From positions 5,843,501-5,907,500 of the forward strand of contig NZ_CP108462.1 in NCBI RefSeq assembly GCF_036226365.1: a stretch of 64,000 bases of DNA, written 5' to 3'. Shown piece after piece: positions 5,941 through 28,497 of the stretch (position 1 is its first letter; every line of letters starts with the position of its first letter). The notes below the pieces were generated by a model. The model was not told where the DNA came from and did no database searches. It worked only from the letters and a program-made list of their open reading frames with translations. Source of the DNA: Streptomyces sp. NBC_01262. Its GTDB lineage: Bacteria; Actinomycetota; Actinomycetes; Streptomycetales; Streptomycetaceae. Both the position numbers and the translations under genes were made by a program.

Positions 5941-5957
5941 CCCTGCTGCTATCCAGT

Positions 5958-6031
5958 AGGACTACACCCCTTAGGACTACACCCCTTAGGACTACACCCC
6001 TTAGGACTACACTCCTAAGGGGTGTAGTCCT
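5958..6031. repeat. 15-bp tandem repeat with one inverted copy
   Basis: Three perfect head-to-tail copies of AGGACTACACCCCTT lie at 5958-5972, 5973-5987 and 5988-6002. A partial fourth copy starts at 6003. One exact inverted copy lies at 6017-6031. The array fills almost the whole gap between the protease stop and the next gene. Confidence 0.95.
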
Positions 6032-14216: not shown

Positions 14217-16903
14217 TCCCGCGCCAGGACCGCGATCACGGCGCGGACACGAGCACGGCGGCCGGACCGGGCGGGATCCAGGCGCTGGTGCGCCGCTTGG
14301 CATCGCTGTGCGGAGTGCTCCGGCGGACGGAAGGTGGCGTCACCGTGATCCACTGCGACACGGGAGCCGCCGGTTCGAGCGTGACCGGCCGGCTGGCCGG
14401 CCTGGAAGACGAGGCGTCGCCGGGCGTCGTACTGCTGTGCACCGAACCTCCCGGCACGAACGATGCCCGCGAGACGATCCTCACCGCCGTCGATGCTGCC
14501 CGTGTGCTCGCTGATACCGCTGGGGCCGGCCGGCCTTCCCGGCTGTTCCTCGTGCGCCCGTGTCTGGTCGACATCGACCATACGCCGGGGGCCTGGAACG
14601 ATCTCGCCCGCGAGCTGATCGCGGACGGCGACGCCGATCACGTCGCCTGGCGCACGGGCACCCGGTTCACAGCGCGGCTGGCCCGCAAGGATCCCGGCGA
14701 AGAAGCCGCCTCCGTGCTGTTCGCCCGCCCGCACGGCGCCTACGTGGTGACCGGTGGGCTCAGCGGTCTGGGTCTGGCCACCGCACGCCGCCTCGCCGAG
14801 CGCGGGGCGGGCCGCCTGGTGCTCAACGGCCGCCGCCCGCCCAGCGCCGAGGCCGAGGCCGTGCTGGGTGAGCTGCGGGCCCTCGGCACCGAAGTCGAGG
14901 TAGTGCTGGGCGATATCGCCGACCACGGCACCGCACGGGATCTTGTGGCTGCCGCTGTACGTAAGGGACACGCGCTGCGTGGTGTGGCACACGCTGCCGG
15001 CGTGCTGAGCGATGCCACGATCAGCGGGCTCACGCCCCAGGACCTGGACACCGTGTTCCGGCCCAAGGTCGACGGAGGCCGCAACATGGACAAGGCCACC
15101 GTCGGCCACGACCTCGACTGGTGGCTGGTGTTCAGCTCCGCGGCCGCTCTCCTGGGTTCACCGGGTCAGGCCGCGTACGCGGCCGCCAATGCCTGGCTCG
15201 ATGCGCTGGTGAACCAGCGACGGGCTCGCGGACACGTGGGTCATTCCATCGCCTGGGGGCCGTGGGCCGGGGCGGGCGCCGCGCCGGACATGACGGCCTT
15301 CGCCATCGAACCGCTCACCCCGGACGAGGGCCTCGACGCCCTTCAGCTCATCGTCGGAGGCGGACGGCCTTTCACCGGCGTCGTACACCTGGACGCGGAG
15401 CGTGTCGTCCGGGCCTTCCCGGGGATCGAGTCCGTGCCCTTCTTCGCCGACCTGATGAGCGGTACCGCCGAGGAGGCCGGTGACTGGAGCGGCGTCGACG
15501 AACTGAGGGGACTCGACAGCGAGTCCGCCCTGGCAGCGGTGCGCCGGAGACTCGCCCTGCGTACGGCGATGGTCATGGGGTTCGACGGCCAGGAGATCGA
15601 CACCACCGCGCCGCTCACGGAGCTCGGTCTCGACTCGCTCATGGCCGTGCGCATCCGCAACGCCGTCAAACAGGACTTCGGGACGGTCCTGCCGCAGACG
15701 CTGCTGCTGAGGGGAGGGAGTCTGGACGCGGTGGCAGTGGCACTGCTTGACGCACTCGATGTCAACGTCAAAGCGCACGGAGATCCGGCGGCGGAGGACG
15801 GGAATGTCAGAAGGAAGTCGCCCGTTTGGAGGACCGTTCGCCCCCGGGACGCGACCGAGCGGCTGGTGGCCGGCGTCTGGGCGCAGTTGTCGGGGTACCC
15901 GGCGCGGGACGTCCATCAGGAGCTGCGCTCGGTACGGGACGACCTGGAATCCGCCACCGACTTCGCCGAACGGATCCGGGCCCGGCTCGGCGGCAACGCT
16001 CCTGTCCCCTCCGTGGAGCAGATCCGCAGCAAGCCCACGGTGGCCGCCGTGGCCGATCTGATCCGTCCGGTGCTGGAAGGCAGCGGCGTCGACAGCTCGT
16101 CACTCCGGGTCCTGCGCGATCCCCGTCACCGGACCGACAGCAATCCCCTCTTCGCCTTCCACCCCGCCGGTGGGTCCACCCGCGTGTTCCTGCCGCTGAC
16201 CGCTCTCCTGCCGCTGGGCCTGCCCGTCTTCGGCCTGGACCGGGTGGATTCGCTGGTCACCGTCGAGGACAAGGCGCGGCACTACGCCACTCTCATCCGC
16301 CAGGCTCAGCGCACGGGCCCTTACCGGCTGCTCGGCTGGTCCTTCGGCGGGTGCCTGGCCTACCAGACCGCCATCCGGCTGCGGGAGATGGGCGAGGAGG
16401 TCGGATACCTCGGCCTGATCGACACCCTTCTGCCCGCCGCCCTGCCGGGCCCCGCGTCCGAGGAGATCCTGATGGGGCGGTTCGCGCAATTCACGGAGTA
16501 CGTCGAGACCGCCTACGGGCGACGTCTGGAACTGCCGTACGAGCAAATGGCGGACATGGACGAGCAGGAGCAACTCGACACGCTGATGCGGCATCTCGCC
16601 GACGCCGGACCGGACATGAGCCCGGGCGTGCTGGAGCACCAGCGCACCTCGTACATCGACGCCCGCATCGGTGAGCGCTACCGGCCACGCCCGTACCCCG
16701 ACCCTGTCGTCCTCTATCGCGCCCAGGAGGCGCAGGCGCTCACCACCGCGATCGATCCCCGTTACCTGCGGGACGACGCCGATCTGGGGTGGGCACCGCT
16801 GTGCCCCGGCCTGACGGTGGTCCCGGTACCCGGTGACCACCTGTCCCTGATCGATCCACCGCACGTGGACGTCATCGCCCGCCATCTCATCACCGCCCTG
16901 TGA
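14213..16903 (+). CDS. Truncated type I polyketide synthase module: KR-ACP-(degenerate ACP)-thioesterase
   Basis: An 896-residue protein, coupled to the ligase gene by ATGA. A ketoreductase spans about residues 175-350 (VVTGGLSGLGLATARRLAER; catalytic region FSSAAALLGSPGQAAYAAAN). A carrier domain follows with the phosphopantetheine serine in GLDSLMAVRI near 470. A second carrier-like segment near 540-625 has lost its serine (DDLESATDFAERI where family members have GGDSL). A thioesterase ends the protein: Ser in GWSFGG near 707 and His in PGDHLSLI. No ketosynthase or acyltransferase is present; the first 160 residues may be the structural half of the reductase. A long-chain condensing role like Pks13 is therefore not possible without partners elsewhere. 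Confidence 0.85.
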   Translation: MIPRQDRDHGADTSTAAGPGGIQALVRRLASLCGVLRRTEGGVTVIHCDTGAAGSSVTGRLAGLEDEASPGVVLLCTEPPGTNDARETILTAVDAARVLADTAGAGRPSRLFLVRPCLVDIDHTPGAWNDLARELIADGDADHVAWRTGTRFTARLARKDPGEEAASVLFARPHGAYVVTGGLSGLGLATARRLAERGAGRLVLNGRRPPSAEAEAVLGELRALGTEVEVVLGDIADHGTARDLVAAAVRKGHALRGVAHAAGVLSDATISGLTPQDLDTVFRPKVDGGRNMDKATVGHDLDWWLVFSSAAALLGSPGQAAYAAANAWLDALVNQRRARGHVGHSIAWGPWAGAGAAPDMTAFAIEPLTPDEGLDALQLIVGGGRPFTGVVHLDAERVVRAFPGIESVPFFADLMSGTAEEAGDWSGVDELRGLDSESALAAVRRRLALRTAMVMGFDGQEIDTTAPLTELGLDSLMAVRIRNAVKQDFGTVLPQTLLLRGGSLDAVAVALLDALDVNVKAHGDPAAEDGNVRRKSPVWRTVRPRDATERLVAGVWAQLSGYPARDVHQELRSVRDDLESATDFAERIRARLGGNAPVPSVEQIRSKPTVAAVADLIRPVLEGSGVDSSSLRVLRDPRHRTDSNPLFAFHPAGGSTRVFLPLTALLPLGLPVFGLDRVDSLVTVEDKARHYATLIRQAQRTGPYRLLGWSFGGCLAYQTAIRLREMGEEVGYLGLIDTLLPAALPGPASEEILMGRFAQFTEYVETAYGRRLELPYEQMADMDEQEQLDTLMRHLADAGPDMSPGVLEHQRTSYIDARIGERYRPRPYPDPVVLYRAQEAQALTTAIDPRYLRDDADLGWAPLCPGLTVVPVPGDHLSLIDPPHVDVIARHLITAL

Positions 16904-16954
16904 CCCCTTCACCGCCCGCACACGACCGATACGACAGCCACGAAGGAAGAAAAC

Positions 16955-18028
16955 TTGGCCCTCCGACGGACTCCTCTGCATCGCCGTGCCTTTTTCGGGA
17001 CGCGTCGCTTCTGGATCTCACACAGGCTCGGCACGGTGGCGGCCTTTCTGGGCTGTCTGACGGCGGCCACGACGCTGACCGCCTCCCCGGGTGCCGCCAT
17101 GACGGGGACCGACCCGCAGACCGTGGACACCTCGCATGTCCAGGCTGACAACGGCGCGTACGTCGCCGAGACCAAGCAGCTCGGAGAACGTGTCATCGAC
17201 CTCGGCATCGACTCCCCGTCGCTGGGCACGAAGGTGCCCGTGCGGGTGATCCTTCCTCCGAGCTGGTCCCCGGACTCGGGTCGCACCTTCCCCACCCTGT
17301 ACCTGCTTCAGGGGGCGAGCGACGACTACACCTCATGGACGCGGGAGACCGATATCGAGGAACTGGCCTCGCAGGCGGACGTGATCATCGTGACACCCGA
17401 GGGCGGCCGGGCGGGCTTCTACACGAACTGGTGGAACTACGGCCAGAAGGACGGCCCGGACTGGGAGACCTTCCACACCGAGGAACTGCCGCAGATCCTG
17501 GAGCGCGGATTCCGTGCGAACGACCGGCGTGCGGTGATCGGAATGTCCGAGGGCGGCCTGGGCGCCCTCAACTACGCCGCACGCCACACGGGGGAGTACG
17601 TCTTCGCCGGCTCCTTCAGCGGCGTCACCGACCTTGACGACCAAGCGCTGCGTTCGGGGATTGTGCTCACCTGCGCGCGCGAGGGCGTGGACGCGATGCG
17701 GCTGTGGGGCGATCCGGTCAGGAACCGGGCGTTGTGGGACGCGCACAACCCCGCGCGCATGGTCAGCCGGTTCCGTGGCGTCAAGGTGCATCTCTCCGCC
17801 GCCGCGGGCCTGCCCGGGCCCCTGGACCGGAACACCCCACGGGAAGCGGGCCTGCTGGAGGCCCCGTCCTACCAGCCGACCGCCAGGTTCGCCGACCGGC
17901 TCCGCAGGGCCGGGGTCGACGTCACCTCCAACCTCTACCTGACGGGCACGCACTCGTGGCCGTACTGGGCGCGGGAGTTGCACGTGGCGTGGCCTTCCGT
18001 GCTCTCCGCGCTCCAGGTCTCATCGTGA
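16955..18028 (+). CDS. Antigen-85-like secreted esterase/acyltransferase
   Basis: A 357-residue alpha/beta hydrolase beginning at TTG 16955 with GAAGGAAG upstream. The N-terminus has arginines and a hydrophobic stretch ending in ASPGAA, consistent with export. The core follows the esterase D/Ag85 family: VRVILPPSWSPDSGRTFPTL, YLLQGASDDYTSWTRETDI, the nucleophile serine in GMSEGGLGALNYAARH and a late histidine in LTGTHSWPYWARELH. Ag85 proteins transfer mycolyl groups to the cell envelope; related Streptomyces proteins are mostly uncharacterised esterases. It lies 51 bases after the polyketide synthase, and the trio ligase-synthase-esterase parallels the mycobacterial fadD32-pks13-Ag85 set. It appears intact although its neighbours are damaged. 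Confidence 0.85.
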   Translation: MALRRTPLHRRAFFGTRRFWISHRLGTVAAFLGCLTAATTLTASPGAAMTGTDPQTVDTSHVQADNGAYVAETKQLGERVIDLGIDSPSLGTKVPVRVILPPSWSPDSGRTFPTLYLLQGASDDYTSWTRETDIEELASQADVIIVTPEGGRAGFYTNWWNYGQKDGPDWETFHTEELPQILERGFRANDRRAVIGMSEGGLGALNYAARHTGEYVFAGSFSGVTDLDDQALRSGIVLTCAREGVDAMRLWGDPVRNRALWDAHNPARMVSRFRGVKVHLSAAAGLPGPLDRNTPREAGLLEAPSYQPTARFADRLRRAGVDVTSNLYLTGTHSWPYWARELHVAWPSVLSALQVSS

Positions 18029-18081
18029 CTTCGCACAGGACTTCCCGGTCTTCGGCGGAAGCGAAATCGCACCTTGAATTC

Positions 18082-18114
18082 CTTCCGGGTGCGTGCGCTG
18101 TCCGCACCCGGAAG
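18082..18114 (+). terminator. Hairpin terminator after the esterase gene
   Basis: CTTCCGGGTGCG and CGCACCCGGAAG form a perfect 12-bp stem with a nine-base loop, 53 bases after the esterase stop. Confidence 0.7.
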
Positions 18115-18141
18115 AAACGACCGACGAGCAGTAATCGTGAT

Positions 18142-18381
18142 CTATCCGGTCGACGGCGGCCAACCGAGGCATTGAGCCACGATCCTCGTCCATTCCTCAT
18201 TGGACTGCCCGGGGACCATGCGTCCTGCCGTCCACCAGCGCATCATGAGCTCAAGGTAGATCGGCTCGTCCATATGGAATGCCGCGTCACCGTTGTGAAC
18301 GTCGGCTGTTTCCCTGCGCGGGATCACTACCTGCGCCGAGAGGTCGGGAGCTGACATATGCGGCCTAACGAGGTACGGCAT
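18142..18381 (-). CDS. Small hypothetical protein downstream of the NsdA-like gene
   Basis: A 79-residue open frame on the same strand as the NsdA-like regulator, 59 bases after its stop. The translation is well composed: a second in-frame ATG (18357) begins MSAPDLSAQVVIPRRETADV, and the C-terminal half contains EPIYLELMMRWWTAGRMVPG and EEWTRIVAQCLGWPP. Neither start has a good ribosome-binding site. No family is recognised. The conserved-looking tryptophans and its place beside a regulator make a small accessory protein plausible. Confidence 0.45.
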   Translation of the reverse strand: MPYLVRPHMSAPDLSAQVVIPRRETADVHNGDAAFHMDEPIYLELMMRWWTAGRMVPGQSNEEWTRIVAQCLGWPPSTG

Positions 18382-18440
18382 GTCAAAGAAACCATCTGTC
18401 TGCTCGTGTCATTCCATCGAGAAAATTTCACTCTGGTGGC

Positions 18441-19844
18441 TCAGTCGGCGTTCAGTAGCGCACCCGCTTCGGTTTTCTCCAACCAGGCCTCGAATTCGTG
18501 TCGCACTGCGGCTTCCTGTCCGAATTTTCTGAGCTGGTATCGGAAAATCTTCAGGTACTCGACACTGAGATTGGACCGCAGATGAACGATTAGTCTTACT
18601 GCTTGCTTCGCTGTATCGCAGCCCGCATCCAGTTCCCTGGCAAGAATCTGTGCCGTGGCCATCAGAAGCAAGTCGATCGCACGTCGTCGCACCCGGTATT
18701 CAGGATGTCCCGAAAGCGCCTCCTCCGCTTTGCGTACGGCGGGCTCGGGCCGGTTGAGGTCGATGTAGCAGTGGGCCAGCTGATCGGCGAGGTAGGCCCC
18801 GTCGAAGTGAGCGATCCACTCGGGTTCGTTGGCGGGATCAGCCTGTTCGAGGGCCTCCACAGCCCTTCCGACGGCAAGACTGCACGCCTGGTTGTCCCCC
18901 AGCAAGGCATATCCGCGTGCCTCTGCCGCGTAGAGACAGGCCTGCGTGGTGAGGGTGGCGTGACCGCGAGTCCCTTCCCGTGCCGCCCGGGCGAGCTGCG
19001 CGACCTCTCGCGGATAACCGAGGGAGGGGGCCACACGACTCATTCCGGCAGCCAGTACGTAGCCACCGTAACCGCGGTCGCCCGCCGCTTGGGCCAGCCG
19101 CAGTGCCTGGATGTAATAGCGCTGAGCCTGGCCGGGCTTGCCACTGTCGACCGCCATGTAGCCCACGAGTTCGGTCAGGCGTGCTGCTGCGGCGTAGAGC
19201 CGTCGCCCGGCTCTCTCCTGGTACGAGCCCTTCAGCAGGCAGGAAACGACGCTGTTGAGGTAGTGCACGGCGATCGTACGTACATGCCCGCTGCCGAACC
19301 GGTGATCGAGGTCGGCCAGATGGCAAGTGGCCTTGGTCATCAACTCGATATCAGCCCTGCCGATCCGCTGGCCTCCGACTCGCGTGACTGTGGAGTCCAG
19401 GTCGGTGATCAGCCAGTCACGGCTCGGTCCCAGCAGCGCGGAAACGGCCACGGTTGAACCGGCGTGGAGATTCTGGCCGCCGGCATCGCTGCGCCACAGT
19501 TCACATGCCTGCTCAATCGCGCCCGTGAGAGCCGGGGCGAACGTCAGCCCGATGCCCGATGCCTGCTGCTGCCGGTTGTTCGACATGCCGATCTCCTCGA
19601 CCGACACCGCGCGGCCGAGCTTGTGCCCGAGTACCTCGGCGATGATCACCGGAGTCAGCCCCCGTGGCTTCTGCCCCCGTAGCCAGCGGCTGACCGAAGT
19701 CTTGTCGTACCGCAGGTCGAGCCCATGCTCGACACCGCTCATGTTGACGCGGCGGGCCAGTCCTACATTCGAGCAGCCTGCTTCGTTGATGAGAGCCTGC
19801 AGCCGTTCGTTGGGCTGGCGTTCCACAAGCGGTCGAGCGGCCAT
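18441..19844 (-). CDS. NsdA-like transcriptional regulator with TPR repeats
   Basis: A 467-residue protein opening MAARPLVERQPNERLQALIN, an N-terminus typical of NsdA, the Streptomyces negative regulator of differentiation and antibiotic production. A helix-turn-helix-like region lies at about residues 20-65 (LARRVNM... YDKTSVSRWLRGQKPRGLTP). A long alpha-helical TPR-type region follows with diagnostic stretches DLDHRFGSGHVRTIAVHYLN, GYMAVDSGKPGQAQRYYIQA and LAQAAGDRGYGGYVLAAGMS. Because chromosomes usually carry several paralogues, this may be one rather than nsdA itself. It is transcribed away from the low-complexity region to its right, so its promoter lies just beyond 19844. Confidence 0.8.
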   Translation of the reverse strand: MAARPLVERQPNERLQALINEAGCSNVGLARRVNMSGVEHGLDLRYDKTSVSRWLRGQKPRGLTPVIIAEVLGHKLGRAVSVEEIGMSNNRQQQASGIGLTFAPALTGAIEQACELWRSDAGGQNLHAGSTVAVSALLGPSRDWLITDLDSTVTRVGGQRIGRADIELMTKATCHLADLDHRFGSGHVRTIAVHYLNSVVSCLLKGSYQERAGRRLYAAAARLTELVGYMAVDSGKPGQAQRYYIQALRLAQAAGDRGYGGYVLAAGMSRVAPSLGYPREVAQLARAAREGTRGHATLTTQACLYAAEARGYALLGDNQACSLAVGRAVEALEQADPANEPEWIAHFDGAYLADQLAHCYIDLNRPEPAVRKAEEALSGHPEYRVRRRAIDLLLMATAQILARELDAGCDTAKQAVRLIVHLRSNLSVEYLKIFRYQLRKFGQEAAVRHEFEAWLEKTEAGALLNAD

Positions 19845-21308
19845 GTCGATGCCCCTCCAATGATATTCAGTCGCTGACTAAAATTGACGATGCATAAGAT
19901 TTGCTGATCCGCTGCCACCGGTTTTAACAACGTCGGCCCGTGTGCGCGAGATGCTGGCAAGCGTGGGTGCTCTGCGGAGAGGTTGATGCGAGAGGCGGAG
20001 ATGGGGGCGCTTGCCCGAAGTTCGCGCTCTCTGTGACTCAGGTCTGAAACGCGCATGTCAAATCGACCCTCGGCGCGACTGAATTGACGCGCCGAACCCC
20101 GAAGGGCTGCTCCCTCGAGAGCGGCACGAGCGGCGGGTGGAAGTGGCCCGGTGCTATTTCGCGCGGTATCCGCGTTCGTCGTGGATAGCCCCACTCGATC
20201 CTGCGAAGCGCGAGCGGGCAAGCCTTCTCTCTGGTAGCGCGCTGCCTGATTCGGGCCGAGATAATCGGCTCGCGCGGCGATGGGCGCGCTCGGCCTCAGA
20301 GGTAGGCGGCAGAGTGCGGCTGGAGTAGGTCGGTCGAGAGTCGACCCCTTGGCTCGGCTGATTCGTTCACCGGCGCTGTTGCGCGTGGACATGGGGGGAT
20401 TCGGTCCGCGGTCGTCATGACTCTGCCGTTCGTCGGGGATGGAGCTCCCGTGCGCGCGGTGTGGGCGTCACCAATCCACAGGTGCCTAGTCGTCGTATGG
20501 GTCTCGCTTTGCGTGGGCCGGTTGGCCGCACGCTGGGCGGAACCCACGTGGCGCCCACACGGGCCGGGCAGATCCGTGTGGCAGAGTCGGTCCGGGAATC
20601 ACCCCAGAACGCAACGAACGCCGCCAATAAGGTAGCGACATTACATTCAGTGTTCAAGTCGATACGTTCGATTACTGGACCCTGCGCCCTGGGTGGAGAG
20701 GTGGGCCGGAAACCGCCAGGTGGCCCGCTCTGCTCGGCGATTGCACTCCTGATCCGGCCCTGGAAAGCCCTTGTTGTGCCGATGTGGGCGCTGGCAGGGC
20801 GTGAACTCCCTTCCATTGGGTGAGATATGCGACGTTGTGTCTCTTCTGACTTGCTTCCGGTGCGTCTTGTGGCGTTGGTGCCGGGCTGCCGAACGACGCG
20901 GCGCGCGCCGTACGCACCCTCGCTCAGATGGAGGTACTCCCGCGCGGTGATCCCGGTGCTGACGGGGAGCGGGTCGAACATCACCCCGCAGAACCCGACA
21001 GCTGTCGCCCGGGCGGGGTGCTTGACCAGTCATCCTTGAGGGGGCCGTCGACGGCGCCGAAGAGTGCGGCCGGGGTGCGTACGGTGTCGTTCCCTGCCTC
21101 GCGAAGACGCGATCGTGCTCGACTGCGAGGGCCTGTCCAAACTCGTCAATGATCACGCACCTGTAGTCGTAGTTCCGGGCCGGTCTGGGCTCCCAAGGGG
21201 ATCTGCCCCGCCGCGCAGCGAGCCAGATGCCGGAAGGCTTTCACCCGAGAGTCGCGTCATCCGTCCACAACCTCCCGAGACAGGGCGACCAGCGGGGAAG
21301 ATGGCCTC
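19845..21308. other. 1.46-kb stretch with no supported intact gene
   Basis: Open frames exist on both strands, but their composition (Arg/Pro/Ser-rich, no plausible starts) and lack of domains argue against coding. One minus-strand segment near 20860-20984 (FDPLPVSTGITAREYLHLSE) looks protein-like yet ends in poor sequence. A PIN-domain-like scrap is listed separately. The stretch is best read as the promoter of the NsdA-like gene plus degraded DNA. Confidence 0.5.
21106..21165 (+). pseudogene. Possible PIN-domain toxin N-terminal scrap
   Basis: Twenty codons read DAIVLDCEGLSKLVNDHAPV. This resembles the first strand and helix of VapC-like PIN nucleases in actinomycetes (VVLDAEGLS followed by a helix) and contains the first conserved aspartate. 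No continuation of the domain, and no antitoxin, is visible nearby. If correct, it is a remnant of a toxin-antitoxin pair. Confidence 0.3.
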
Positions 21309-21680
21309 ATGACAAAGCTGTCCGTATGGCCGGTCCGTCGAGCCTCCTCTGGTTCGCTCCTGTCGTTGTGGTCGCAGGACTCTGTGTTGTCGATCGGCTC
21401 GGTTGGATCGGTGCTGTCCGTGGGGTCCATCGGTTCGGCCTTGTCGGTCGGTTCGATCGGAAGTGCTCTGTCGGTCGGTTCGATCGGTTCCTCCCTGTCG
21501 CTGATCTCAACCGGGTCGTGGCTGAGTACAGGATCGTTGTTTTCCGCGCAGTCACGGTGGTCGGTGCTGTCCTGGCGTTCCTCTCGCGGTTTCCTGGCCA
21601 TGGGAGCGGTAGGGGCAGCGGCCGGAGGCGCCCTGCTGGTGGCCCAGATGCTGCACAAGGCCGAAGCCGGTACTGAATAA
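21309..21680 (+). CDS. Small serine-triplet repeat protein with C-terminal membrane helix
   Basis: A 123-residue protein of unknown family. From Ser13 to Ser91 serine occupies every third position without interruption, 27 serines in a row of S-x-x triplets. The variable positions are mostly small or hydrophobic: LL, VL, IG, VG, AL, TG. The core is three near copies of SVGSIGSAL. The last 30 residues form one membrane-length segment (FLAMGAVGAAAGGALLVAQM) and a short polar tail. The DNA is also repetitive, with units of about 27-33 bases. ATG 21309 follows GGGGAAG. No Cys is present and there is no signal-peptide cleavage motif, so a tail-anchored orientation is possible. A strict period of three suggests a polyproline-II-like or other regular helix. 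Function unknown. Confidence 0.75.
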   Translation: MTKLSVWPVRRASSGSLLSLWSQDSVLSIGSVGSVLSVGSIGSALSVGSIGSALSVGSIGSSLSLISTGSWLSTGSLFSAQSRWSVLSWRSSRGFLAMGAVGAAAGGALLVAQMLHKAEAGTE

Positions 21681-21768
21681 CCTTGATCAGGTTGAGAGGT
21701 TGTTTCGCTCGGCGTTTCAGACCGGGATGAGGGTTTGGTGCCGTGGTGCGGGGTTGCGCCGGAAGATG

Positions 21769-21790
21769 GCCGCCTCGCCGGCGAGGCGGC
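21769..21790. terminator. 22-bp perfect palindrome
   Basis: GCCGCCTCGCC and its exact complement GGCGAGGCGGC are contiguous. The palindrome lies 89 bases after the stop of the serine-triplet gene and could terminate it. Confidence 0.45.
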
Positions 21791-21847
21791 GGGACATCAG
21801 GTCGGCACGACCGCTCCGGCGCCGTGATCCGCCCAGCAAGAATGATC

Positions 21848-21888
21848 AAGGCCCAGGTTCCCGGTTCTCGCCGGCTGACCTGGGCCTT
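21848..21888 (-). terminator. Hairpin beyond the partial tRNA copy
   Basis: AAGGCCCAGGT and ACCTGGGCCTT are perfect 11-bp arms around a 19-base loop. It lies 21-61 bases beyond the 3' side of the partial tRNA-Arg copy and is where the terminator of the original tRNA gene would be expected. Confidence 0.55.
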
Positions 21889-21908
21889 CGTCGTACGTCG
21901 CGCCGCGA

Positions 21909-21960
21909 GGGCGCTGTGTGCCCCAGGCAGGATTCGAACCTGCGACACCGGCTTTAGGAG
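21909..21960 (-). repeat. Partial copy of tRNA-Arg(CCU) 3' half (left att-like repeat)
   Basis: The 52 bases at 21909-21960 match 28415-28466 with one mismatch (T versus C at 21917/28423); the inner 43 bases (21918-21960) are identical. They cover the tRNA from the anticodon loop to the discriminator base. To the right of 21960 the similarity to the tRNA stops. This is the usual structure left when an element integrates into the 3' half of a tRNA gene. Confidence 0.85.
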
Positions 21961-21993
21961 TGGGATCGAATCCTTGACCGGGAGTGATCACCC

Positions 21994-22036
21994 GTGCCGG
22001 GTGGTGCTGTCCGTGCAGGTCAGCACCACCCGGCAC
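21994..22036. terminator. Perfect 16-bp hairpin at the left end of the cassette
   Basis: GTGCCGGGTGGTGCTG at 21994-22009 is exactly inverted at 22021-22036 around an 11-base loop. It lies downstream of the minus-strand exporter operon and just inside the left att-like repeat. It may terminate the operon or have been a recombinase arm site. Confidence 0.55.
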
Positions 22037-22134
22037 GGCCCCCGGCCCTGTGGCCTGACAGTGGGTGCCGCTCTGTCCGCTCACGCATCGCGCACGCATC
22101 CAGGGCCTTTGACCACCGAACCCTGTGTCTTTCG

Positions 22135-22242
22135 TCAGGCGGTCGGCTTGAGGCGATCCGTGACGAGCTGGAGGATGTCGGGGCCTGCTGTCCCTGTTCG
22201 TTGAGCGAGACCGATGACGACCGGTTTCGTAGCGCTGCTCAT
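22135..22242 (-). CDS. Possible 35-residue protein coupled to the exporter permease
   Basis: An ATG at 22242 overlaps the permease stop by four bases (ATGA) and opens a 35-codon frame, MSSATKPVVIGLAQRTGTAG followed by PDILQLVTDRLKPTA, ending at 22135. The coupling and the sensible, non-repetitive composition argue for translation. It may be an intact small protein or the front of a gene truncated when the cassette formed. No family is recognised. Confidence 0.35.
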   Translation of the reverse strand: MSSATKPVVIGLAQRTGTAGPDILQLVTDRLKPTA

Positions 22243-24848
22243 TCGGTGGTGCCCATCGCCACGACCGGGCTGACCTGGGCCGCGCGGCGGGCGGGCAGCA
22301 GTCCGGCGAGCGCGGTGACGCCCACCAGGCCCAGGAAGACCACCAGCAGTTGCCCGTACGGCAGGAGCAGCGGCGCATCGATGTTGAGTACCCGGATCGT
22401 CAGCCAGGCGTAGGGCACGCCGAGGGCCAGACCGAGGACGCCGCCGATGACGCCGTACAGGCCGGCCTCCATGCCGATCATGAGGCGGAGCCCGGACCGG
22501 CCGAGTCCCAGGGCGCGCAGCAGTCCCGATTCCCCGGTGCGTTCCAGCACGGTGAGGCCGGTCGTAGTGCCGACGCCGATGACGGCCATGAGCACGGTGA
22601 GCCCGAGCAGACCGAGCGACATGGTGGCCATGACGCCGATATCGGCGTTGCTGTTGTCGCGGTCCTCGGCGAGGACGCGCAGGTCGGCACCACTGTCCGG
22701 GCCCACTGTCCGCTGGATCGCCGTCTCCGCCGCGTTGCGCGCCGCCTGCCCACGCGCGGCGGCATTCGCCAGGACCCCGGTCCGCAGCCGTGAAGCGCCC
22801 ATGTGGTCCAGGTCGGTGGGCGCGACGATCACGTCGGCGTTGAGTGGTGCATTGCCGGGCAGGGTGGCGGCGACGGTCGCGCGGACGGTGCCCTTCTTCG
22901 CCGAGGGGAGGGTGAGGGTGAGGCTGTCGCCCGCCGTCACGCCGAGCTCCTTGGCGAGCTGGGCATCCACGATCACCCGGCCCGGTCCGAGATCGCTCAG
23001 GGTGCCGTCGGCCGGGTACAGCCGCCGTGAGGAGGGCAGAGCGGCCAGGTCCACATCGGTGGCCACCGCGTCGGTTCCGCCGACGGTGATCTCGGGCATC
23101 CGGTAGTCGGTCGCGTCGGCCAGCTCGGGCAGGGCCTTGATCCGTCGTACGACCTCGGAACTGAGACCCTTGTCGCCGCCGATCAGATCGAAGTCCGCGG
23201 GTGCCTCGACCGCGGATTTCCGGTCCATCGAGCCCTGCAGGCTCGCGAGGCCGACGAGGGTGCCGGAGACCAGAGTGACGCCGAGCGCGACGACGACCGA
23301 CACAGCCGCAGCGCGGCGCGGCGCGCCGCCGACGCCGCCGACGGCGAGCGTGCCGGTGGGTCCCAGCCGGCGCAGCGGCCATCCGGCGACGGCCAGCACC
23401 GGGCGTACGAGCAGCGGGCCCAGGACGACCAGCGTGAGGAAGGCCAGGGCGCCCGAGAGGACGGTAACCGTCAAGCCCCCGGTCGAGTCGTAGCTCTGGT
23501 CGCCCGGTTCCGGCAGATCGCTGAAGATCACGCCGATCAGTCCGAGGGCGCCGGCGCCGAGGAGCAGCCCGGTGCCCAGGCGCGCCAGGCCGATACCGCG
23601 TTCGCCCGCCACGGTTCCGGCACGGCGCAGGGCCAGCAGAGGAGAGACATCGGATGCCGACAACGCGGGGGCGAGGACCGCGCCGGCCGTCACCAGTACT
23701 GAGCCCAGTACAACCGCCAGGGCCGTGAGAACGGGCACTCCGGGCGTCGAGAGGCTCTGTCCGGCGGCGCGCACGAACGCCGGGGTGGCATGTCCGGCGC
23801 CGAGTGCCAGCAGTACTCCGGCCGTACCGGCGACCAGGCCCACCAGCGCGCCCTCGATGGCGAGTGCCCGGACGAGCTGGCCGCGGTGGGCTCCGATGGC
23901 GCGCAGGAGGGCCAGTTGGCGTAGCCGTTGCGCGAAGACGATCCGGAACGCAGACGTCGCAACGAGGGCGGCCGCGACCACGGAGACGGCCAGGAACATC
24001 GTGATGAGCTGGAAGATGTCCGCGTACTGTTCCACCGCCGCCCGGGCTTCCTGGGCCCGTACGGTGTCGCCGGGGACGAAGTCGGCGGCCGCACCGGGAG
24101 CGCGCTTGAGCAGCGGACGCAACCGCTGGGAGAGCGTTGCTGCGGAGACCCCGGGTTCCGCGCGGATGTCGAGCCGCGGATATCCCCGCGTACGGCTCAT
24201 CGCGTTGAGGGTGGTGGCGGGGGCATAACCGGTGGCGTACCGGTCGGAGCCCGCCTCCACCACCCCTGTGACGGTCACGGTGACCGTCCTCGTCTTCTCG
24301 GAGTCCTTCTCTTGAGGGAAGAGCATGCCGATCCGGTCGCCGGGTTTGATGGCCAGTTGCCGCGAGGCCTGACGGTTCACGGCCACCTCGCGGGGGCCGT
24401 CCGGGTAGTGGCCCGCCACGACCCGTACCCGCGACAGCCGCCCGTGGCCCGGATCGCCCTGAAGTTGCAGAGAGCGTGCGAGGGTGCCGGTGAGGGGGAA
24501 CTCCACCCCGTTCAGGGTCCGGGCGGCCACCTCCGCCACACCGGGCACTGCCCGGATGGCTCCGATCTCCGCGTCGGTGATGGCCGCCGTGTCCAGGTCC
24601 GCGGACACGACCAGGCTGGTCGCCGCGGGGGTGCCTGCGAAGTGGTCGAGGACGGTTCGTTCGGTGATCTGCTGGGCCATCACGGTGCCGAACACGACGA
24701 ACGCGGCGACGAGCACCGCCAGACCGGTCATGACGAGCCGGCCAGGACGGACCAGCATCCCGGTGAGCTGGGTGCGCAGCACGGCGACGCTCGGTCCCGG
24801 TTGCCGGCTCGGTTCGCGGCGCGGTTCTCCGCTCGGTCCCCGGCTCAT
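22239..24848 (-). CDS. FtsX/MacB-type ABC transporter permease
   Basis: An 869-residue permease coupled to its ATPase by ATGA at 24845-24848. Layout: a first transmembrane helix near residues 36-60 (RLVMTGLAVLVAAFVVFGTV), an extracytoplasmic domain to about 280, an FtsX core of helices near 285-425 (IFQLITMFLAVSVVAAALVA; VLTALAVVLGSVLVTAGAVL), a linker with two more helices, then a second domain and a final FtsX core at the C-terminus (GVMATMSLGLLGLTVLMAVI; LIGMEAGLYGVIGGVLGLAL). The duplicated FtsX arrangement is typical of actinobacterial exporters placed beside a two-component system, often linked to antimicrobial peptides or envelope stress. Substrate not identifiable. Confidence 0.9.
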   Translation of the reverse strand: MSRGPSGEPRREPSRQPGPSVAVLRTQLTGMLVRPGRLVMTGLAVLVAAFVVFGTVMAQQITERTVLDHFAGTPAATSLVVSADLDTAAITDAEIGAIRAVPGVAEVAARTLNGVEFPLTGTLARSLQLQGDPGHGRLSRVRVVAGHYPDGPREVAVNRQASRQLAIKPGDRIGMLFPQEKDSEKTRTVTVTVTGVVEAGSDRYATGYAPATTLNAMSRTRGYPRLDIRAEPGVSAATLSQRLRPLLKRAPGAAADFVPGDTVRAQEARAAVEQYADIFQLITMFLAVSVVAAALVATSAFRIVFAQRLRQLALLRAIGAHRGQLVRALAIEGALVGLVAGTAGVLLALGAGHATPAFVRAAGQSLSTPGVPVLTALAVVLGSVLVTAGAVLAPALSASDVSPLLALRRAGTVAGERGIGLARLGTGLLLGAGALGLIGVIFSDLPEPGDQSYDSTGGLTVTVLSGALAFLTLVVLGPLLVRPVLAVAGWPLRRLGPTGTLAVGGVGGAPRRAAAVSVVVALGVTLVSGTLVGLASLQGSMDRKSAVEAPADFDLIGGDKGLSSEVVRRIKALPELADATDYRMPEITVGGTDAVATDVDLAALPSSRRLYPADGTLSDLGPGRVIVDAQLAKELGVTAGDSLTLTLPSAKKGTVRATVAATLPGNAPLNADVIVAPTDLDHMGASRLRTGVLANAAARGQAARNAAETAIQRTVGPDSGADLRVLAEDRDNSNADIGVMATMSLGLLGLTVLMAVIGVGTTTGLTVLERTGESGLLRALGLGRSGLRLMIGMEAGLYGVIGGVLGLALGVPYAWLTIRVLNIDAPLLLPYGQLLVVFLGLVGVTALAGLLPARRAAQVSPVVAMGTTE

Positions 24849-25642
24849 CGGGTGCCCGTCCGGTTCTGCAGCGCGTCGGTGACCGACGCCCGGGTCGGGG
24901 TGTCCAGATCGTCGACGATCCGGCCGTCGGCGAGGACGAGGGCGCGGTCGGCGTAGGCGGCGGCGCCTGGGTCGTGGGTCACCATGACGACGGTCTGCCC
25001 GAGATCACGCACCGATTTGCGGAGGAAGTCGAGCACTTCGGCGCCGGAGCGCGAGTCCAGATTGCCGGTGGGCTCGTCGGCGAAGACCACGGCGGGCCGT
25101 GCCGCCAGAGCGCGGGCCAGCGCCACCCGCTGCTGCTGGCCGCCGGACAGCTCACCGGGCCGGTGGGTCAGCCGGTCGCCGATGCGCAGAACGCCGACGA
25201 GGTGGTCGACCAGCTCCTGGTCGACGTGTCGGCCGGCCAGGTCGAGCGGCAGCGTGATGTTCTGCATCGCGGTCAGCTGTGGCAGCAGATTGAACGACTG
25301 GAAGACAAAGCCGATTTTGTCGCGCCGCAAGGTGGTCAGCGCCCGGTCGGACAGGCCGGTGAGTTCCGTATCGCCGATCAGTACCCGTCCGGAGGTTGCC
25401 GTGTCGAGACCGGCCAGGCAGTGCATGAGCGTGGACTTGCCGGAACCGGACGGGCCCATGATGGCGGTGAACCGCGCCGGGGCGAAGCCGACGGTCACGC
25501 CGTCCAGCGCTCGTACTCCGGTGCCGTCCAGGCCGTAGACCTTGACGAGGTCCTCCGCACTGACAGCGCCGGCAGCGCCGACAGTGGCGGCAGCGTCCTG
25601 GGAAATGCTTTCCTTTTTGTGCGCAACGGCGCGGATACCCAT
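24845..25642 (-). CDS. MacB/LolD-type ABC transporter ATP-binding protein
   Basis: A 265-residue ATPase. ATG 25642 (MGIRAVAHKK) is preferred over the in-frame ATG at 25666 because AAGGGGAA lies eight bases before it, inside what would otherwise be coding sequence. Motifs: Walker A GPSGSGKST, Q-loop FVFQSFNLLPQL, signature LSGGQQQRVALARAL, Walker B VVFADEPTGNLDS and H-loop VMVTHDPGAA. SFNLLPQLTAMQNITLPL is diagnostic for the MacB/LolD subfamily that powers FtsX-type permeases. It is the first gene of the exporter pair; a small membrane-anchored protein lies 33 bases upstream on the same strand. Confidence 0.92.
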   Translation of the reverse strand: MGIRAVAHKKESISQDAAATVGAAGAVSAEDLVKVYGLDGTGVRALDGVTVGFAPARFTAIMGPSGSGKSTLMHCLAGLDTATSGRVLIGDTELTGLSDRALTTLRRDKIGFVFQSFNLLPQLTAMQNITLPLDLAGRHVDQELVDHLVGVLRIGDRLTHRPGELSGGQQQRVALARALAARPAVVFADEPTGNLDSRSGAEVLDFLRKSVRDLGQTVVMVTHDPGAAAYADRALVLADGRIVDDLDTPTRASVTDALQNRTGTR

Positions 25643-25675
25643 GGTCGGATTCCCCTTGTACGTCATGGAATGCGT

Positions 25676-26107
25676 TCAGGACGCGATGGGCGGGAACACG
25701 AGGGTGCGTTTGGCGTCGGTGCAGTGCGCATTCGCGGTGTCCGCCACCTCAGCCAGTTCTTGCTTCGTCGGCGCCGCTGTCTGTCCCGTCACCCTGTCGG
25801 CGGCCCAGTCTTCGTACCTGGCGACCGTCGCGCCGAGATAGCCGTCCTTCATCTTTGCCTTGCGCAGGTTGTGCATGTCGAGATGCCACTTCGTGGCGGC
25901 TGCTTTGTCCTGGGGAATCTTCTGCGCACTGTCGATGATCTTCTGGGCCAGGGCGCAGTCCGCGGCCGATGCCTGGCTCGGCTCATTGTGCTGCTTCCAC
26001 CAATAGGAACCGCCGACCCCAACCGCCGCCACAATAAAGACCGCGACGATCCCGAATGCCATCAGCTTCTTGCTGTTCCGGATTCCGGCCTGCTCCGCGA
26101 TAACCAT
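25676..26107 (-). CDS. Membrane-anchored small protein of the exporter cassette
   Basis: A 143-residue protein starting at ATG 26107 with CTGGAG upstream. One strong transmembrane segment lies near residues 14-35 (KKLMAFGIVAVFIVAAVGVG). A predicted extracytoplasmic domain of about 105 residues follows, with two cysteines (ADCALAQKIID and ANAHCTDAKRTL) that could form a disulfide. No family is recognised. It sits between the response regulator gene and the exporter genes on the same strand. A sensor accessory or an exporter partner is plausible, but this is inference from position. Confidence 0.7.
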   Translation of the reverse strand: MVIAEQAGIRNSKKLMAFGIVAVFIVAAVGVGGSYWWKQHNEPSQASAADCALAQKIIDSAQKIPQDKAAATKWHLDMHNLRKAKMKDGYLGATVARYEDWAADRVTGQTAAPTKQELAEVADTANAHCTDAKRTLVFPPIAS

Positions 26108-26263
26108 CTGCTGTCTCCAGAGAATTGTAGAAAGACGCTCGTTCGTGTCGTCAACAATTCTTGCCGGGCAGGCCTTCGGGCACATCGGATGGGGAAACGA
26201 CCCAGGGGGTCGAGCGTGTACGACCCGGGTCGTACACCGGAGGGTCCGGGTCCTACGCCGGGA

Positions 26264-26980
26264 TCACCCGGCCGACCGGACCAGCCCGATCTCGTACGCC
26301 AGCACGACGGCCTGCACCCGGTCGCGCAGCTCCAGTTTGGTCAGGATCCGCCCGAAGTGCGTCTTCACGGTCGTCTCCGCGACGTACAGGCGGGCGGCGA
26401 TCTCGGAGTTGGACAGCCCCTGGGCGACCAGCTCCAGCACGTCCCGCTCCCGATCCGTCAGGATGGCGAGCCGGTCGTCCGCCTTCTGCGGCTCGGCCGG
26501 CGTCAGCTGTCCGGCGAACCGGTCGAGCAGTCGACGGGTCACCCGGGGAGCCACGACGGAGTCGCCCGCCGCCACCACGCGGATCGCCGCGAGGAACTCC
26601 TCCGGGGGCACGTTCTTGATCAGGAAGCCGCTCGCGCCGGCCTGCAGCGCGGCGAACGCATCCTCGTCGGTGTCGAACGTGGTGAGTACGAGGATCTTGG
26701 GCGGATCCGGGCGCTCGCCGAGCCGCTTGGTGGCCTCCACGCCGTCCATGACCGGCATGCGGATGTCCATGACGACGACATCGGCCGCAGTCCTGTCCAG
26801 CAGCGCGAGCGCCTCCGCCCCGTCCCCCGCCTCCCCGACGACATCGATATCGGGCTGCGCGTCCAGCACCATGGCGAACCCGGCGCGTACCAGCGGCTGA
26901 TCGTCCACCACGACCACCCGGATCGGCCGCTCTTTACGGTCCCTGTTGTCCCTGTTATCCCTGCTGTCCGTGCCGTTCAT
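26264..26980 (-). CDS. NarL/LuxR-family response regulator
   Basis: A 238-residue regulator. The receiver domain carries the acidic pair in VVVVDDQPLVRAGF, the phospho-acceptor aspartate in VVVMDIRMPVMDG, the conserved threonine in VLTTFDTDE and the lysine in GFLIKNVPPEEF. The C-terminal LuxR helix-turn-helix reads LTDRERDVLELVAQGLSNSE then IAARLYVAETTVKTHFGRIL. The ATG at 26980 overlaps the histidine kinase stop by four bases. An N-terminal run of NRDNRDRK repeats precedes the receiver. It probably controls the exporter genes downstream. Confidence 0.93.
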   Translation of the reverse strand: MNGTDSRDNRDNRDRKERPIRVVVVDDQPLVRAGFAMVLDAQPDIDVVGEAGDGAEALALLDRTAADVVVMDIRMPVMDGVEATKRLGERPDPPKILVLTTFDTDEDAFAALQAGASGFLIKNVPPEEFLAAIRVVAAGDSVVAPRVTRRLLDRFAGQLTPAEPQKADDRLAILTDRERDVLELVAQGLSNSEIAARLYVAETTVKTHFGRILTKLELRDRVQAVVLAYEIGLVRSAG

Positions 26981-28191
26981 GCCGCCGTCCTCACCGGAAG
27001 CTCGACCTTGATCTGCCAGCCCGGGCCGAGCCGGGGGCCGGCGGTGAACCGGCCGCCGTGCACATCGACCCGCTCCCGCATGCCCACGAGCCCGTTGCCA
27101 CCCGACCCGGGCACCACCGGGGTGGAACCGGCCAGCTTGCCGGCCCCGTCGTCGACGACCTCCAGTACGGCGGTGCCCTCGTCGAATTTCAGCGTGACGG
27201 TGACCTGGGCCTCGGGGCCGGCGTGCCGCAGCGCGTTCGTCATGCCCTCCTGGGCGATCCGGAAAAGCGTCAACTCGTCGGCGGCCGAGAGCCCCTGCGG
27301 CTCGCTCTCGATGTCCAGATCCACCTGGAGTCCGGCGGCGCGGGCCCGCTCCACCAGCAGTTCGAGATGGGCCAGGCCGACACGGCGACGGTCGGCGCCG
27401 GCGTCGGCTTCGGCACCGGTCTCCTTCGTGCCGCGCAGTACCTCGACGATCCGGCGCATGTCCTCCAGCGCGTCCCGCCCGGTGCCCGCGATCGTCTGCA
27501 TCGCCTTGCGGGCCTTGTCCTGGTCCGCCTGGATCGCGTAACTGGCCCCGTCGGCCTGGACGATCATCACGGCCAGGCTGTGCGCCACTACGTCGTGCAG
27601 CTCGCGGGCGATCTCCGCGCGCTCCTCGGCGGCGGCCAGTTGCGCGAGATGGGCCCGCTCCCGCTCCGCGGTAGCGGCACGCTCCTCCAGCGCGGCCACA
27701 TACAGTCGGCGGGTCCGCAACATGTACGCGGTCAGCCATACCGCCGCGCAAATGCCGGTGATGGTCAGGCACTCGTTGAGGCTGTCCAGGCCCTCATCCG
27801 AGGTGAGGGAGTCGAAGTCGAACCCACCGAACGCCACCATGGTGCCGACGATGACGATGCCGCCGGCGACGTACGCCTTCCACATCTGCCCGGTATGGCT
27901 CACCACCGTCACCATGGCGATGAGGATGGCCACGTCGTACCCGGTGACATCACCCGTCAAGGGCTCGGGAAACAATGTCGCCAGTAGACTCTGCGTCAGG
28001 GCGAGGGCGGAAACGACCGTCATCACGGTCATGGGAGCGCGTCGGCGGAACACCACGGCCAACGCCATCGAAAAGCCGATGAGCTTGTCGTAGCCCGTGT
28101 CGTAGAACAACGTCGAATAGGCCACCAGCACCGCGACGGCCAGGTCGTAAACCTTGTGAATCCACGGTTCCGACAGCGTCCGGCGCATCAT
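26977..28191 (-). CDS. Two-component sensor histidine kinase (HisKA_3 type)
   Basis: A 404-residue kinase if read from the ATG at 28191 (MMRRTLSEPWIHKVYDLAVA); the open frame extends to 28323, but the extra 44 residues look non-coding. Five or six hydrophobic segments occupy residues 15-165 with almost no extracytoplasmic domain, so sensing is probably intramembrane. The phospho-acceptor histidine lies in ARELHDVVAHSLAVMIVQAD. The HATPase domain ends the protein (ALRHAGPEAQVTV; VVDDGAGKLAG; GNGLVGMRERVDVHGG). Such kinases commonly pair with NarL-type regulators and ABC exporters, as here. Confidence 0.92.
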   Translation of the reverse strand: MMRRTLSEPWIHKVYDLAVAVLVAYSTLFYDTGYDKLIGFSMALAVVFRRRAPMTVMTVVSALALTQSLLATLFPEPLTGDVTGYDVAILIAMVTVVSHTGQMWKAYVAGGIVIVGTMVAFGGFDFDSLTSDEGLDSLNECLTITGICAAVWLTAYMLRTRRLYVAALEERAATAERERAHLAQLAAAEERAEIARELHDVVAHSLAVMIVQADGASYAIQADQDKARKAMQTIAGTGRDALEDMRRIVEVLRGTKETGAEADAGADRRRVGLAHLELLVERARAAGLQVDLDIESEPQGLSAADELTLFRIAQEGMTNALRHAGPEAQVTVTLKFDEGTAVLEVVDDGAGKLAGSTPVVPGSGGNGLVGMRERVDVHGGRFTAGPRLGPGWQIKVELPVRTAA

Positions 28192-28346
28192 GGCCGCCAG
28201 AGTACAGGACCCGAACAACCCAGCCTGCTTCCCGAGGCCGGCCTCGCCATCGCCGAGGCTGCAGTCCCGGCCCGGAGTCCTGCCGGATGATGCTGATCCT
28301 TTGGGAGATATTCGGGAGATCAACTCTCCGTCCGCTCACGCATTCG

Positions 28347-28370
28347 GCCTCGGACGAGCTCGTCCGAGGC
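28347..28370 (-). terminator. 24-bp perfect palindrome beyond the tRNA gene
   Basis: GCCTCGGACGAG is followed directly by its complement CTCGTCCGAGGC. It lies 55-78 bases past the 3' end of tRNA-Arg on the minus strand and is likely its present terminator, supplied from inside the cassette. Confidence 0.6.
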
Positions 28371-28414
28371 GGAACAGGACCCCTCCCTGGGGGAGAAACC
28401 CCAGTTCAGCGGTC

Positions 28415-28466
28415 GGGCGCTGCGTGCCCCAGGCAGGATTCGAACCTGCGACACCGGCTTTAGGAG
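28415..28466 (-). repeat. Right att-like repeat within the intact tRNA-Arg gene
   Basis: Direct-repeat partner of 21909-21960 (51 of 52 bases identical). It begins just beyond the tRNA 3' end and reaches into the anticodon loop of the complete gene. The two copies bracket about 6.45 kb. Confidence 0.85.
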
Positions 28467-28497
28467 AGCCGTGCTCTATCCCCTGAGCTACTGGGGC
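28425..28497 (-). tRNA. tRNA-Arg(CCU)
   Basis: A complete 73-nt cloverleaf. The acceptor arm GCCCCAG pairs with CTGGGGC and the discriminator is A. The D arm is GCTC...GAGC. The anticodon stem CGGCT/AGCCG encloses the loop CTCCTAA (anticodon CCT). The T arm is GCAGG-TTCGAAT-CCTGC. CCA is not encoded. Its 3' half is duplicated at 21918-21960, marking it as the integration target of the cassette on its 3' side. Confidence 0.95.

Follow-up and report, generated by a model that had tools for sequence, protein, structure and literature searches.

Background

In His-Xaa-Ser repeat proteins, every third residue of a long stretch is serine. A strict three-residue period marks snow flea antifreeze protein and other polyproline-II bundles, which have an invariant glycine and turns between the strands. 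RTX nonapeptide beta-rolls and other beta-solenoids combine a 9-residue superperiod with small residues, one leucine per unit and a long unbroken repeat, and an unbroken run rich in V, I, S, L and G suits a beta-solenoid. Small proteins with no evident N-terminal signal and one C-terminal helix are found among the tail-anchored proteins of Streptomyces, with 20 candidates tabulated for S. coelicolor (PMC3087755).

The window, i.e. the whole stretch of 64,000 nucleotides analysed here, contains a gene for a protein that resembles each of these systems in part. With HxsA4 it has in common the serine at each third residue over a long stretch, but residues 13-91 hold no histidine, and the NCBIfam score of 17.1 bits lies below the cut-off of 55; a match to DLW-39 is weaker still. 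HxsA4 (NF038313) is the sole NCBIfam model matched at E ≤0.01 among 51 family members (28 of them, best 0.00085, window protein 0.0076). The radical-SAM maturase HxsB exceeds its cut-off in none of eight carrier genomes, the window's genome included; sub-threshold matches occur in all eight, and also in 12 of 14 control genomes. A His-Xaa-Ser system was rejected on the low score, the histidine-free lattice and the lack of an HxsB above cut-off. The RTX beta-rolls and other beta-solenoids share all the features listed above with the lattice, yet here the repeat is a serine lattice without the calcium aspartates of the RTX type, and a solenoid fold is proposed rather than observed. The polyproline-II bundles agree in their strict three-residue period and differ in that the invariant residue here is serine and the lattice has no break; moreover, its V and I disfavour polyproline II. 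The tail-anchored proteins of Streptomyces are alike in size, in lacking an evident N-terminal signal and in their single C-terminal helix, but none of the 20 tails printed in that table (PMC3087755) is alike by eye, and the helix is optional in the lattice family.

The first-pass annotation could assign the lattice to no nameable family, and no Pfam or NCBIfam model describes it above cut-off. Pfam yields no match at E 0.01 for the 51 members, nor does the window protein match any Pfam family at E 1; PADLOC has no match, and a profile of the 51 members against solved structures gives weak matches only (eight at E up to 1, best 0.069). Searches of open-access PubMed Central by repeat peptide strings and by topic found no such protein, which may be described elsewhere. 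Judged by its sequence, the serine-lattice protein is a new family, placed by no library searched here; this concerns the family and not its function.

The serine lattice and its C-terminal tail

The gene and the features around it are listed in Table 1.

Table 1. Features of the serine-lattice locus in the window
Feature	Coordinates	Strand	Basis
Integrase relic, tyrosine type, short	21053..21102	+	84% identity over 50 bp to G210 integrase gene
Widest stretch around the gene in common with any of the 80 other loci (maximum extent of the transferable unit)	21163..21786	+	blastn
-10-like hexamer GAAGAT, presumed leaderless promoter	21297..21302	+	ends 6 nt before ATG; homologue motif [CT]ANNAT
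Serine-lattice ORF, 123 aa, ATG to TAA	21309..21680	+	ORF reading; 80 fetched homologues; dN/dS 0.09
Serine lattice, residues 13-91, 9-residue superperiod SxL-SxG-SxG	21345..21581	+	superperiod measured on 34 distant homologues
Putative C-terminal membrane helix, residues 95-116	21591..21656	+	hydropathy; low-confidence AlphaFold2 model
Truncated 3' copy of tRNA-Arg(CCT), attachment-site scar	21912..21960	-	contiguous with whole tRNA in G210
Intact tRNA-Arg(CCT)	28424..28497	-	ARAGORN

The serine period noted at first sight is exact: Ser13 to Ser91 comprise 27 serines in an unbroken i+3 register, against a longest run of 9 in 20,000 composition-preserving shuffles. The pairs between the serines are VL, IG, VG, AL and the like, as described. 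Across 34 distant homologues, glycine at the third position of the triplet is autocorrelated at three triplets (0.41) and six triplets (0.32) and slightly negatively correlated at one, two, four and five. The third position thus tends to an L-G-G order, and the repeat is a nonapeptide, SxL-SxG-SxG. The core has the same length in 79 of 81 sequences and is exactly 9 residues shorter in the other two. Serine is the most constant lattice residue, and several V, I, L and G positions likewise show little or no variation.

A single membrane helix had been proposed to follow the lattice. In the window protein the hydrophobic stretch is indeed present: mean Kyte-Doolittle hydropathy over residues 95-116 is 1.57, and a low-confidence AlphaFold2 model draws residues 91-120 as a helix. 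The lattice itself is hydrophobic as well, with 19-residue windows reaching 1.38. The stretch is, however, not constant in the family. A single C-terminal hydrophobic segment, the criterion for a tail anchor (hydropathy of at least 1.5 over 18 residues), is found in 77 of 81 close and 20 of 34 distant homologues; among the failures, the close homologue L039 is cut by a contig end, the distant L094, L104 and L106 are borderline, and L109 ends at a stop. With 14 of the 34 distant tails below threshold, it is the lattice and not the helix that defines the family. Two distant homologues without helix (L098, L099) have a different lattice ending, a common tail that ends in CHCQT. AlphaFold2, run once with an alignment of 51 of the 81 sequences and once for residues 13-95 alone, returned no strands and no usable model (pLDDT 49.3 and 49.7).

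Distribution of the family

A scan across genomes of 84,980 species, sensitive to close relatives only, yielded 96 of them; the best 80, which were retained and read, comprise 79 named Streptomyces and one 'Actinobacteria bacterium OK074'. Sampled searches gave matches at the level of the genus (24 of 35 genomes), the class (34 of 197 genomes, 20 of 91 genera) and the phylum (14 of 198 genomes). The genome of the window itself is among those counted, as are some matches that are weak or false. Because such searches score only a limited set of candidates in each genome, absences in them are soft. The distant sequences read here are the matches from these searches that were assigned a locus, and most retain the three-residue lattice, among them four from outside the class (L127-L130). 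Rows were dropped as wrong-frame or chance matches (L114, L132, L134), as low complexity (L131), as frame-broken (L126, L133), as a second view of L130 (L135) or as repeats of fetched species (L086/L087). The first-pass annotation would have given up its reading if no related genome held a homologue with conserved frame and period three; related genomes keep both. No copy of the family was found in phage, plasmid or viral collections. One genome (G220) possesses two good family matches, at C2:3998718-3998984 (E 2.7e-27) and 373240-373506 (E 1.4e-21), a possible copying event.

Coding strand and selection

The serine-lattice ORF is a genuine plus-strand gene under strong purifying selection. 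Over up to 400 sampled pairs from 79 of the 81 sequences (80 fetched homologues and the window), the sense frame has a median dN/dS of 0.091 and one antisense frame a median of 0.313, while all four remaining frames exceed 1.5. Diversity at the three codon positions is 0.096, 0.026 and 0.331 in the equal-length core (79 of 81 sequences). The lattice frame might alternatively be the by-product of an opposite-strand gene with EPIEPTD-type repeats (window 21257-21658), the frame that the codon-bias gene caller chose. This antisense frame is open in 78 of the 79 core sequences and has its wobble position in common with the sense frame, so that neither openness nor codon-position diversity can decide the strand. 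The dN/dS values can, and an opposite-strand gene was rejected on them; in addition, the -10-like motif directly precedes the sense ATG, and the lattice serines of 33 distant homologues are encoded by AGY in 95 of 770 cases and by TCN in the rest, a mixture which indicates that serine itself is kept, and in the sense frame only. We regard an antisense gene as highly improbable.

Start codon and presumed promoter

Leaderless mRNAs arise from about 21% of the primary start sites of S. coelicolor, where TANNNT is the -10 motif (PMC4895711). Upstream of the serine-lattice gene, 75 of 81 sequences have the motif [CT]ANNAT with its end 6 nt before the ATG (positions -12 to -7), and in two more the distance is 7 nt; in L073 and L079 the motif precedes an upstream ATG once the start is moved by eye, for a total of 79 of 81. 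The same motif in the same place precedes 6 of 817 neighbouring gene starts (starts from the gene caller). Similar motifs precede many, though not all, distant homologues. With a -10-like hexamer 6-7 nt before the ATG in 79 of 81 sequences, the mRNA is probably leaderless, its 5' end at or adjoining the ATG. The true exceptions are L025 (CAGACT) and the window itself (GAAGAT); nearly all close homologues have CANNAT, and the substitution in the window hexamer suggests that this copy may be weakly expressed.

Many chromosomal sites and no constant neighbour

Promoter motif and ORF together make up a unit of roughly 0.4-0.6 kb; in this form the gene is found at many places in the chromosome, and it moves alone. 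Flanks were compared by blastn of window 15309-27680 against the 80 loci (E 1e-5, at least 40 bp). Beyond the widest shared stretch (Table 1), only a tRNA-Arg scrap (L002, L014) and generic regulator and ABC genes are common to other loci. If loci with a common flank (within 6 kb, 250 bp at 70% or above) are counted as one site, the 81 copies occupy about 42 sites, a count that depends on the flank threshold, may be inflated by diverged flanks and includes a few loci cut by contig ends. In Streptomyces there are ten flank-sharing groups of 2 to 17 loci, and the other loci are single. Among pairs at 90-95% DNA identity, 6 of 78 are at a common site (pairs differing by 40 or more bases in length left out).

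The largest group comprises 17 loci beside ettA, an ABC-F gene (the L040 copy exceeds the EttA cut-off); by clustering, ettA is the next gene downstream in 15 of them. The ettA site lacks the serine-lattice gene in all eight genomes fetched for comparison (blastn and tblastn; G133 gives a single chance match of 15 residues). The gene is present elsewhere in five of these genomes (G000, G112, G057, G018, G073), and no convincing copy was found in G133, G039 and G210. In the window's genome, the flanks of the ettA site are 109 bp apart. When L045 and L040 are compared with the empty site of G112, flank homology breaks off some 31 nt ahead of the ATG; past the stop it begins again after about 22 nt in L045, whereas L040 has roughly 0.7 kb of additional sequence there. 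Other flank comparisons give wider limits, and the ends of the unit vary between comparisons. The shared unit is too small for a recombinase and has no defined ends, which does not fit an insertion sequence or integrative element.

Conserved gene neighbourhoods, a check that the first-pass annotation suggested, did not emerge at the phylum level: no constant partner gene was found in 35 loci across the phylum (L150 was dropped, its lattice not being found by the script). One neighbour cluster, of ABC ATPases, is common to 10 of the 35 loci including the window, and nine clusters are common to three loci each, at scattered distances. An NsdA-family regulator is encoded on the minus strand of the window (18441-19844), 1.5 kb from the serine-lattice gene; it scores over the subfamily cut-off and far below the NsdA and NsdB equivalog cut-offs. 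The window also contains a tandem repeat of four copies of the 15-base unit TAGGACTACACCCCT (5957-6020). The mobility, together with the 9-residue superperiod and the leaderless promoter motif, goes beyond what had been noted for this gene before.

The tRNA-Arg(CCT) scar and the origin of the window copy

A tRNA integration site had been placed next to the gene. A truncated tRNA-Arg(CCT) scar does lie about 230 bp past the stop, but the intact tRNA is 6.7 kb away. In G210, a sister genome whose ettA stretch is 95.5% identical to that of the window's genome, the counterpart of window 21804-21960 continues into an intact tRNA-Arg(CCT), with a tyrosine integrase gene adjoining, the protein of which matches PF00589. 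The integrase relic of the window is also recognised by tblastn (16 residues at 94%, E 1.4e-5), and the serine-lattice gene sits between this relic and the scar. Window 21961-28423, about 6.5 kb, is inserted at the 3' end of tRNA-Arg(CCT) and encodes an FtsX-like permease, an ABC ATPase, a LuxR-type response regulator and a histidine kinase; no integrase was seen among the genes called in it.

The position of the window copy between relic and scar raises the alternative that the gene does not move by itself and is a cargo of tRNA-integrating elements, its many sites being decayed islands. In L014, a tRNA-Arg scrap of 24 nt lies at almost the same distance, and a tRNA gene is present in the fetched stretch of 16 of the 80 loci, in 14 of them within 3 kb. 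The 16 of 80 is, however, a raw count; eight of the 16 cases fall in two site groups, and the tRNAs of L024 and L030 are of odd length and may be false calls. An integrase ORF lies near only 3 of the 81 loci according to a local integrase profile (which missed one near L001), and the copies at the ettA site have no adjoining integrase except L043 and L068. Integrases being rare and half of the tRNA cases falling in two site groups, integrative elements explain a part of the pattern at best, and we consider the cargo reading unlikely.

The window's genome probably obtained its copy laterally from a Streptomyces-type donor, as a comparison against one gene, ettA, suggests; the direction is inferred. 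In G210, a draft of 410 contigs, no match to the gene was found in the genus sample. For 10 Streptomyces species, identity to the window's genome at fourfold sites is 0.73-0.83 in the serine-lattice gene against 0.58-0.70 in ettA, while ettA of G210 reaches 0.77; in L001 the two values nearly meet (0.73 vs 0.70). Over all 80 homologues, fourfold-site identity of the gene spans 0.40 to 0.87; a high value is thus not inherent in the gene. The 130 nt upstream reach a global identity of up to 0.89, but random stretches average 0.70 in the same loose alignment; the argument for transfer therefore leans on the fourfold sites and not on the upstream identity.

Discussion

As a tentative model, which may prove right though we would not rely on it, the serine-lattice protein is a tail-anchored, self-associating nonapeptide beta-solenoid scaffold on the inner (cytoplasmic) face of the membrane. 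The 27 triplets would be wound into nonapeptide coils that make up a regular rod, a serine-laddered beta-solenoid, and such rods would associate with each other. Where present, the C-terminal helix and the arginine-bearing junction before it would hold the rod on the cytoplasmic membrane face, and the N-terminus would be inside, a topology taken from the positive-inside rule. The rod might act alone, as a membrane-bound scaffold or an assembling effector, and for this no neighbour gene would be needed. Against the model stand the AlphaFold2 runs, which gave a pLDDT of 49 with and without alignment and drew no strands. Since the helix is below threshold in 14 of 34 distant homologues (three of them borderline), tethering cannot be general; the hydrophobic lattice might itself enter or coat the membrane.

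Two other readings of the function have to be weighed against this scaffold. The lattice could be a mostly unfolded, evenly spaced array of serines that is modified by a widespread enzyme, through phosphorylation, glycosylation or RiPP-type maturation, with the modified array as the functional form. That serine is the most constant residue, that AlphaFold2 finds no fold and that 28 of 51 members weakly match the His-Xaa-Ser repeat model are all consistent with such an array, which would nevertheless have no need for the near-invariant V, I, L and G positions. It also lacks a constant neighbour of any kind in 35 loci, and no carrier genome has an HxsB over cut-off, weaker matches being present in unrelated controls as well; we hold it to be quite unlikely. 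Alternatively, the lattice could insert or assemble in the membrane and harm the cell or a competitor, after the model of single-gene toxins, abortive-infection or bacteriocin-like systems. An effector of this kind would explain the mobility of a single gene and its patchy presence (24 of 35 genus and 34 of 197 class genomes), and lattice and tail are both hydrophobic. We judge it distinctly unlikely: there is no match in PADLOC, no constant antitoxin or immunity neighbour, no copy in the phage, plasmid or viral collections and no signal peptide apparent by eye.

Constant selection without constant neighbours points to a self-contained benefit. The widest reading, in which we have low confidence, is that of a phylum-wide set of self-sufficient genes, each a leaderless promoter with one ORF, that relocate and cross genera without visible recombination machinery and encode a serine-laddered, usually membrane-anchored nonapeptide solenoid of new architecture. 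If true, it would add an architecture absent from the profile libraries searched. The failure of AlphaFold2 with 51 sequences makes the family a fair test case for structure prediction of repeat proteins. The family also poses the question of how a gene of about 0.4 kb with its own promoter changes site and species so often while its protein stays nearly fixed.
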